A stretch of DNA of 64,000 nt from Candidatus Paralachnospira avium (GTDB lineage Bacteria; Bacillota; Clostridia; Lachnospirales; Lachnospiraceae), in the NCBI GenBank assembly GCA_904420245.1, contig CAJFUL010000078.1:1-64000 (forward strand), given 5' to 3'. Under the pieces are notes generated by a model that did no database searches, was not told where the DNA came from, and saw nothing but the letters and a program-made list of their open reading frames with translations. This document shows, one piece after another, positions 4,069-6,188 of the stretch. Positions within the stretch are counted from its first letter, which is position 1; every line of letters starts with the position of its first letter. Made by a program: the position numbers and the translations under genes.

Positions 4069-4097
4069 TTGACGCAGTCTCTAAAATATGCTAGGAT
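4069..4097 (+). promoter_or_regulatory. Sigma-A-type promoter for MATE leader
   Basis: TTGACG-N17-TAGGAT (4069-4074, 4092-4097). Confidence 0.55.
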
Positions 4098-4100
4098 GAT

Positions 4101-4198
4101 ACTACTTGCCCGGAGGGCGAATCATTCGGCGGAAATGATAAGCTGGATAAAGGCACGGACTGAGATGTCTGTTCTTTATCCGGCTTTTCTTTTGTTTT
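4101..4198 (+). ncRNA. Structured 5' leader with intrinsic terminator; candidate guanidine-IV (mepA motif) riboswitch
   Basis: Two short stems (TTGCCC/GGGCGAA; ATCATT/AATGAT with CGGCGGA loop), then a long hairpin GCTGGATAAAG..ACGGAC/GTCTGT..CTTTATCCGGC and TTTTCTTTTGTTTT, upstream of a MATE gene. Confidence 0.55.
4142..4198 (+). terminator. Leader intrinsic terminator upstream of MATE gene
   Basis: 11-bp stem plus inner 6-bp stem followed by U-rich tract. Confidence 0.75.
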
Positions 4199-4239
4199 GC
4201 GCTGCCTGGAGCTATCCCATATAAAGGAGGAAACAAAAA

Positions 4240-5583
4240 ATGGATCTGTTGAACGGCAAGATCAAAACTCTCTACTTCAAATATCTGGCCGCGGCCTTTG
4301 GAAGCGCCCTGATCACTTCCATCTATTCCATCGTAGATATGGCCATGGTGGGCCAGTACCACGGTCCCGACGGCGCCGCGGCCCTGGCCGTGGTGGCGCC
4401 CATCTGGAACATCATCTACAGCCTGGGACTCCTAATGGGGATCGGCGGTTCCGTCCTCTTCAGCACCATCCGCGGAAGGGCCGGCGGCCAGGAAAAAAGA
4501 TCCAACGAATACTTCACGGCCTCCATCATCGGCTCTGTGGTCCTGGCTCTGGCAGCCTGGATCGTGATCGCGGTCTTTGACAGACAGCTGCTCACATTCT
4601 TCGGAGCCGGCGAAGAGACCCTCTCCCTGGCCAGAGAATACGTCCGTCCCATTAAATTCGTGGTCCCCTGCTTCCTGTTCACCCAGACCCTGGCGGCCTA
4701 CCTGCGCAACGACGGACATCCCGGCCTCGCCACGGCAGGAGTTCTGGCGGGAGGGATCTTCAATATCTTCGGCGACTATTTCTTTGTCTTTACCTGCGAT
4801 ATGGGCGCCTTCGGCGCCGGACTGGCCACGGCCGTGGGCTCTGTCATCTCCATATTGGTGATGCTGTCCCACTTTTTCACCAAGAAGAACACCCTGCGCC
4901 TGGTCCGCCCCTCCGGCCTCCTCGGAAAACTGAGGGAAATCTCCGTAACGGGCTTTTCCACCTTTTTCATCGACATCGCCATGGGCATCCTGACGATCCT
5001 GTTCAACCGGCAGATCATGGCCTGCCTGGGAACAAACGCCCTCTCCGTGTACGGCGTCATCGTCAATATCAGTACCTTCGTGCAGTGCTGCGCCTACAGC
5101 GTCGGCCAGGCCTCCCAGCCCATCTTCTCCACCAACTTCGGAGCGGGAAACGCGGGACGCATCCGCCGTACCCTGCAGTACGCCCTGGCCACCACGGCCT
5201 TTTTCGGCATTGTCTGGACCGTCCTGTGCCTGGCGGCTCCCAATGCCTTCATCCATATTTTTATGAGCCCTACGGAAGCAGTGCTGGAGATCGCTCCGGG
5301 CATCATCCGGTGCTACGGACTCTCCTTCCTGCTGCTTCCTCTCAATATTTTTTCTACCTATTATTTCCAGTCCATCATGAAGCCTCAGGCTGCCTTCATA
5401 GTCTCCATCTCCAGAGGACTTGTGATCAGCGGGCTTTTGATCCTCCTGCTCCCGGCAGCCGCCGGGGCTGGCTTCATCTGGCTGGCAATGCCCCTCACAG
5501 AACTTATCACGGCAGTCTATGTCGTATGCGCCGTCACGCGCTACACAAAACGGCTGCCCCAGCGAAAGGAAGGTGCTTTATGA
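4240..5583 (+). CDS. MATE family efflux transporter (MepA-like)
   Basis: 447-aa 12-TM protein; PLFKYLAAAFGSALITSIYSIVDMAMVGQYHG-like N-terminus typical of MepA/NorM MATE proteins. Confidence 0.9.
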   Translation: MDLLNGKIKTLYFKYLAAAFGSALITSIYSIVDMAMVGQYHGPDGAAALAVVAPIWNIIYSLGLLMGIGGSVLFSTIRGRAGGQEKRSNEYFTASIIGSVVLALAAWIVIAVFDRQLLTFFGAGEETLSLAREYVRPIKFVVPCFLFTQTLAAYLRNDGHPGLATAGVLAGGIFNIFGDYFFVFTCDMGAFGAGLATAVGSVISILVMLSHFFTKKNTLRLVRPSGLLGKLREISVTGFSTFFIDIAMGILTILFNRQIMACLGTNALSVYGVIVNISTFVQCCAYSVGQASQPIFSTNFGAGNAGRIRRTLQYALATTAFFGIVWTVLCLAAPNAFIHIFMSPTEAVLEIAPGIIRCYGLSFLLLPLNIFSTYYFQSIMKPQAAFIVSISRGLVISGLLILLLPAAAGAGFIWLAMPLTELITAVYVVCAVTRYTKRLPQRKEGAL

Positions 5584-6188
5584 ATCAGATCATCACCATC
5601 GGACGGGAATTCGGAAGCGGCGGACGTGAACTGGGCCGCCGTCTGGCAGAGACTCTGGGCTTTGCCTACTATGACCAGGAGATCGTCGGAGAGATCTCCA
5701 GACGGACTGCCCTGTCCCAGCAGTATGTGCGGGCAGTGGTGGAGCATCAGTCCGCCTTTTCCTTCCCCATCCACATCGGACGCAGCTTCTATATGCCGGT
5801 GAATCCGGCCTTTGAGCAGACCATGGCCGTGTACCGGGAGGAAGCCCGCATCCTCACGGAGATGGCCGATCAGTCAGACTGCGTCATCGTAGGCCGCTGC
5901 GCCGACTATGTCCTGAGGGACCGCCGTCCGCTCCGCCTCTTTGTCTACGCGAACATGGAGAGCAAGCTGCGCCGCTGCCGGGAAAAAGGGCCCGCGGCAG
6001 AATCCCTCACGGACAAGGAGCTGCGGCAGAAGATCCTGGGCATCGACAAAAAACGGGCCAAATACTATGAATTCTACACAGGACGCCCCTGGGCCGACAA
6101 GCTGAATTTCGACCTGTGCATCAACACCACGGAGACCGTCATCAAGGAGATGGTGCCGGCCGTCGCGAAATTCCTGCAAGCCCGGTAA
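5580..6188 (+). CDS. Cytidylate kinase-like family protein
   Basis: MNQIITIGREFGSGGRELGRRLAE P-loop; ATGA overlap with MATE stop. Confidence 0.85.
   Translation: MNQIITIGREFGSGGRELGRRLAETLGFAYYDQEIVGEISRRTALSQQYVRAVVEHQSAFSFPIHIGRSFYMPVNPAFEQTMAVYREEARILTEMADQSDCVIVGRCADYVLRDRRPLRLFVYANMESKLRRCREKGPAAESLTDKELRQKILGIDKKRAKYYEFYTGRPWADKLNFDLCINTTETVIKEMVPAVAKFLQAR

Follow-up and report, generated by a model that had tools for sequence, protein, structure and literature searches.

The window, that is, the whole stretch of 64,000 nucleotides analysed, contains an intergenic region flanked by a divergent MoxR-like ATPase gene (3942 to 2986, minus strand) and a gene for a MATE-family efflux transporter, whose leader transcript was predicted to start near position 4104. 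The features of the leader and of the genes following it are given below, with the basis of each assignment in brackets.

4069 to 4097, plus strand: sigma-70-type promoter, with TTGACG at 4069-4074, a 17-nt spacer and TAGGAT at 4092-4097 (sequence)
4106 to 4111, plus strand: 5' arm of helix P1', UUGCCC, at or near the transcript start, of which UGCC (4107-4110) pairs with GGCA (4152-4155) (covariation)
4106 to 4120, plus strand: local hairpin UUGCCC-GGA-GGGCGA, stable in the window, its pairing not conserved
4112 to 4120, plus strand: J1/2, GGAGGGC followed by GA, containing the near-invariant core strand GGAGGGY (alignments A1 and A4, members from other phyla)
4121 to 4139, plus strand: P2 hairpin AUCAUUC-GGCG-G(A)AAUGAU, variable in sequence, with pairing kept across the family
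4140 to 4151, plus strand: J2/1, AAGCUGGAUAAA, containing the near-invariant GCYGGAUAA (alignments A1 and A4, base counts before GGAUAA)
4140 to 4198, plus strand: intrinsic terminator, lower stem approximately 4140-4152/4174-4186, upper stem 4155-4160/4167-4172 (fold, covariation)
4152 to 4155, plus strand: 3' arm of P1', GGCA (covariation with the 5' arm)
4240 to 5583, plus strand: MATE-family efflux transporter gene, the regulated gene, with ATG at 4240 (Pfam MatE, E=2.3e-32; NCBIfam MATE models)
5580 to 6188, plus strand: cytidylate-kinase-like gene (Pfam Cytidylate_kin2, E=5.4e-45)

Both outer elements proposed in the initial annotation were borne out: the promoter TTGACG-N17-TAGGAT by the sequence at 4069-4097, and the terminator hairpin with its U-rich tract, upstream of the MATE start at 4240, by sequence, fold and recurrence in relatives. 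The terminator has the loop UGAGAU and is followed by the U-rich tract at 4185-4198. Folding of 4104-4239 gave a z-score of -3.6 relative to shuffled sequences, only 1 of 200 of which reached equal stability. The cytidylate-kinase-like gene shares 4 nt, including the stop codon, with the end of the MATE gene and is presumably in one operon with it; homologues of this gene were found downstream of the motif at six other loci (L029, L039, L087, L108, L176 and L179).

Relatives of the leader were collected by pattern and covariance-model searches over increasing taxonomic distance. In 397 genomes of the window's taxonomic family, the core pattern CGGAGGGNNNATCATTC produced 26 matches, compared to 2 for a reversed control, and about 20 of the 26 were genuine leaders with promoter and terminator, followed in nearly all cases by an exporter gene. 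A covariance model built from these leaders (R1) identified copies in 30 of 295 genomes of the order, belonging to several families, the weakest few hits having the appearance of chance matches. Diverged copies in other families of the order were of the type GUUCAUCGGAGGGU...GCYGGAUAAGAUG, and a second pattern was matched in 37 of 392 genomes of the order (1 control match), a few of these matches being chance hits in apparent coding sequence. Class- and phylum-wide searches gave further copies. Among named genomes, the pattern CATCGGAGGGYN{14,40}YGGATAAGATG produced at least 119 matches against approximately 3 expected by chance (our own estimate), and the matches listed came from Bacillota (Lachnospiraceae, Oscillospiraceae, Clostridium, Faecalibacterium, Ligilactobacillus and Lapidilactobacillus), Bacteroidota and Spirochaetota, the other taxa among them being Bacteroides, Odoribacter, Muribaculaceae and Alistipes, and Brachyspira and Treponema. 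Genomes checked as a whole usually carried one copy. Viral contigs contained no match to either of the two patterns used, and plasmids no near match. In one congener (L003, 1509-1598, minus strand), a leader 92% identical to that of the window precedes a decayed MATE gene, most of which is deleted, so that the control element is orphaned.

A MATE gene was located directly downstream in 108 of 128 sampled copies, and in three more it lay further downstream, behind a cytidylate-kinase-like gene. Several of the remaining 17 copies were at a contig edge, while the rest included genes for an ABC exporter and an MFS transporter, and for proteins with a B3/4 domain and with an HD domain; Cytidylate_kin2 was also among the genes behind the motif. 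Judging from their N-terminal sequences, the MATE proteins encoded behind the motif belong to clearly different subfamilies. The B3/4-domain gene is that of Ligilactobacillus saerimneri (L112), where the motif at 5564-5642 precedes a gene at 4844-5548 (minus strand). B3/4 proteins (CtdA, editing of canavanyl-tRNA) occur in guanidine-I and -IV regulons (PMC11477304), and this context gives a slender hint towards guanidino compounds.

Across the family, a near-invariant core, GGAGGGY...GCYGGAUAA, surrounds a freely covarying P2 hairpin; the conservation of GGAGGG is to be read in the light of GGAGGG itself having been part of the search patterns, and the first tandem copy at locus L253, which a less strict scan brought up, carries GGAGGAU in its place. 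For P2, the comparison of own with swapped halves gave z=16 over 119 distinct hairpins, a score reached in 0 of 2,000 shuffles, and the terminator likewise covaried, both in its upper hairpin (z=15.8) and in its lower flanks (z=7.3); these values, like those for P1' below, are from shuffle tests, which only partly allow for the relatedness of the sequences. P1', which did not appear in the initial annotation, is a long-range helix between the 4-6 nt directly upstream of GGAGGG and the strand directly downstream of GGAUAA. Over 28 distinct pairs of arms, own partners scored 4.19 and swapped partners 3.35±0.14 (0 of 2,000 shuffles), and in larger sets z was 6.9 with 34 pairs and 5.8 with one pair per distinct arm. 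Loci obtained with the named-genome pattern, in which the arms were fixed as CATC/GATG, were for that reason excluded from this test. When the second arm was slid along the leader, a single peak was obtained, exactly at the strand after GGAUAA. At least eight compensated variants were observed (UUGC/GGCA, UCAC/GGUGA, UUAC/GGUAA, UAGC/GGCUA, CGC/GCG, UUCAUC/GAUGR, CAAUC/GAUUG and UUUAUC/GGUAAA). P1' comprises only about 4 bp in the window (U4107-A4155, G4108-C4154, C4109-G4153 and C4110-G4152), and members of the window's type (group A) have one unpaired or mismatched nucleotide within the helix, their exact register being our reading of the alignment.

The two adjacent stems described initially are therefore to be distinguished: both are present in the window, and ATCATT/AATGAT, corresponding to P2, covaries, but the pairing of TTGCCC with GGGCGAA is not conserved, its observed covariation score having been matched by 335 of 2,000 shuffles. 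The local first stem was thus ruled out as part of the conserved fold; in that fold, UUGCCC pairs instead with the strand following GGAUAA, which lies within the 5' half of the terminator. Two further candidate arrangements were rejected: kissing of the 5' arm with the apical loop of the terminator gave no signal in the sliding test, and a function of ATCATT/AATGAT as a DNA operator was ruled out by a spacer of varying length and by a stem sequence that varies while its pairing is kept.

J2/1 doubles as the 5' arm of the lower terminator stem, and the aptamer-like fold and the terminator are mutually exclusive because GCYGGAUAA and the 3' arm of P1' together constitute the 5' arm of the terminator. 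Inspection by eye revealed no conventional antiterminator with complementarity to the terminator arm; its place is taken by P1'. The order of events is indicated by the promoter: of the 127 family members whose upstream DNA was long enough, 103 had a promoter-like site (at most four mismatches) just upstream, compared to 42 in a control window, and in 82 of these 103 the -10 box ended 7-8 nt before the 5' arm of P1', so that the aptamer-like domain is transcribed first. According to the alignments, the unpaired junction strands are near-invariant while the helices vary, as in aptamers. A conserved core with covarying helices in several phyla, and a core fold exclusive with the expression platform, are features of a riboswitch, and we infer direct sensing of a ligand and regulation in the ON direction.

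The leader is thus best read, with a probability of roughly 0.75, as a member of a widespread and apparently undescribed class of cis-regulatory RNA acting as a transcriptional ON riboswitch. According to this model, the first 50 nt or so of the transcript would form an aptamer-like domain, in which P1' closes a junction formed by GGAGGGY, P2 and GCYGGAUAA. Without ligand, the terminator would form and the MATE exporter would be off. A small molecule, probably one that is toxic and exported by the MATE protein, would stabilise P1' and the junction, and the antiterminator so stabilised would block the terminator and switch the exporter on. For the window, the calculated energies without ligand were -11.3 kcal/mol for the local hairpin with P2, compared to -6.7 kcal/mol for P1' with P2, and the terminator contributes far more energy, its state winning without help in the folding program. 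Since the program prefers the local hairpin with P2, P1' needs stabilisation from outside.

Such stabilisation could also be provided by a factor acting in trans, for example a protein. Antitermination by an RNA-binding protein that holds the P1'/junction fold in place of a metabolite fits the regulatory logic equally well, and conserved unpaired strands may serve as protein-binding sites. We nevertheless regard it as unlikely, given that the core is shared by three phyla, mostly as a single copy per genome with no regulator gene noticed alongside, and that tandem cores, found at two loci, resemble those of metabolite riboswitches. At these loci (L253, cores at about 1430-1620, and L259/L056, at about 1440-1600), two cores are followed by a single terminator and then a MATE gene. 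Tandem aptamers are a familiar arrangement among metabolite riboswitches. At L253, the 3' arm of the terminator can pair with the GCCGGAUAAGAU strand of the first core as well as with that of the second.

Control by a translating ribosome would require GGAGGG to be the Shine-Dalgarno sequence of a short upstream open reading frame, on which stalling caused by an antibiotic controls the terminator. GGAGGG does resemble a Shine-Dalgarno sequence, and leader-peptide attenuation is a frequent mode of control of drug exporters. However, no start codon was present 4-10 nt after GGAGG in 102 of 127 members, the length of P2 is not constant modulo 3 and P2 covaries as RNA, and reading frames shift among close relatives; leader-peptide control is very unlikely because neither a start codon nor a frame is conserved.

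The leader had initially been proposed to be a guanidine-IV (mepA) riboswitch. The class, also known as GGAM-1, is characterised by binding of guanidine in the micromolar range. Guanidine-IV leaders, found upstream of sugE and MATE genes, have two loops that lie far apart and are connected by a pseudoknot, one of them inside the terminator (PMC7736828, PMC12186494), and in the corresponding reading of the window's leader, guanidine or a relative of it would join two loops by kissing and so block the terminator, either in guanidine-IV itself or in its variant Gd4v. The two share an ON logic embedded in the terminator and MATE genes downstream (PMC7736828, PMC12186494, PMC9788692), as well as a compact leader and long-range pairing of a 5' element with the 5' half of the terminator. 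In addition, the B3/4-domain gene behind the motif of Ligilactobacillus saerimneri is of a kind controlled by guanidine-I and -IV (PMC11477304). An intrinsic terminator as expression platform and a downstream MATE gene are both present in the window, but an exporter-gene context is common to other classes and is not diagnostic of guanidine-IV. In place of the two-loop pseudoknot, the window family has P1' closing a GGAGGGY/GCYGGAUAA junction around a variable P2, and the loops of the kissing interaction, a GCCGG-type 5' loop and an AGGCC-type terminator loop, are both absent in the window and its relatives.

The Rfam search suggested with that proposal gave no hit on the window that reached a gathering threshold, and at E<=10 only chance hits on the leader; the motif of 18 diverse members likewise had no match in Rfam 15. 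By itself the Rfam result says little, because Rfam 15 also missed leaders of guanidine-IV type. Such leaders, recognised by a loop with GCCGG, a U-tract, and AGGCC in the loop of the terminator hairpin, precede three of four SMR/sugE genes inspected in the taxonomic family, the fourth having a leader that resembles guanidine-I, and several other MATE genes, one of which belongs to the genome of the window. The deciding test was a covariance model made for the purpose (R2) from leaders of this type upstream of sugE/SMR and MATE genes. It recovered L021, L221 and L223, as well as L013 from outside the training set, but at E<=10 missed the window and also 24 other members of its family at their motif. 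Conversely, a model of the window family (R3) detected more than 90 of its members and, at E<=0.01, none of five guanidine-IV-type loci. With no cross-detection in either direction and with guanidine-IV-type leaders occurring separately, the assignment is not supported, and we attach hardly any likelihood to it. For Gd4v, which is extremely similar to guanidine-IV and located mostly upstream of a transaminase gene (PMC9788692), the separation is indirect, depending on its being described as differing from guanidine-IV in little more than features D1-D4 and on the lack of a match of the window to R2; the window family was not seen upstream of transaminase genes.

The second MATE leader in the window's genome (L021; G000:C16, motif 1181-1269) is of guanidine-IV type and precedes a distant MATE gene, with 31% identity to that of the window, so that MATE genes of a single organism appear to be under the control of two distinct classes of RNA. 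At another locus (L220), a leader located about 150 nt upstream of an SMR gene looks by eye like guanidine-I (ykkC).

Two other known systems bear a partial resemblance to the window family. The guanidine-III (ykkC-III) riboswitch contains short GAGG and GGACAAG strands loosely like the GGAGGG and GGAUAAG of the window family, but it is an H-type pseudoknot with an unlike topology, and the Rfam search of the window gave no match. The HMP-PP (thiS) riboswitch shares with the window family an aptamer overlapping the terminator and operation as an ON switch (PMC8632094), differing in gene context and with no similarity according to Rfam. Finally, an ordinary terminator or constitutive attenuator that senses nothing, to which we give next to no credence, would account for a strong and stable hairpin but needs neither GGAGGG nor the covariation of P1', and the tandem cores lacking a second terminator indicate that the core is conserved apart from the terminator.

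The more general part of the initial proposal, a terminator-controlled leader of a MATE gene that is possibly divergent or of a new class, is therefore supported, and the ON riboswitch reading leads to an apparently undescribed class of riboswitch candidates separate from guanidine-IV. No description of the motif was found in Rfam or in open-access papers, and a prior report is possible in subscription papers, supplements or the 2017 list of 224 motifs. It seems fairly likely that this class of about 50 nt, which extends over Bacillota, Bacteroidota and Spirochaetota, turns on MATE exporters in response to a toxic metabolite or xenobiotic not recognised so far, perhaps a guanidino compound, and that in some cases tandem aptamers act on one terminator. 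It would add to the known riboswitches a class with a short core, consisting of P1', GGAGGGY, P2 and GCYGGAUAA, the second half of which is a terminator arm, and would be easy to test with purified components. To our knowledge, most bacterial MATE exporters have no known substrate. A conserved sensor that precedes MATE genes of several subfamilies and occurs in many gut bacteria from three phyla would give a direct handle on the compounds exported, and its ligand, once found, would name one of them. A different MATE leader, at locus L010, has a promoter and a GAGCCAGAUAAG...CUUAUCUGGCUUUUUU terminator and lacks GGAGGG; it is possibly a further type of attenuator.
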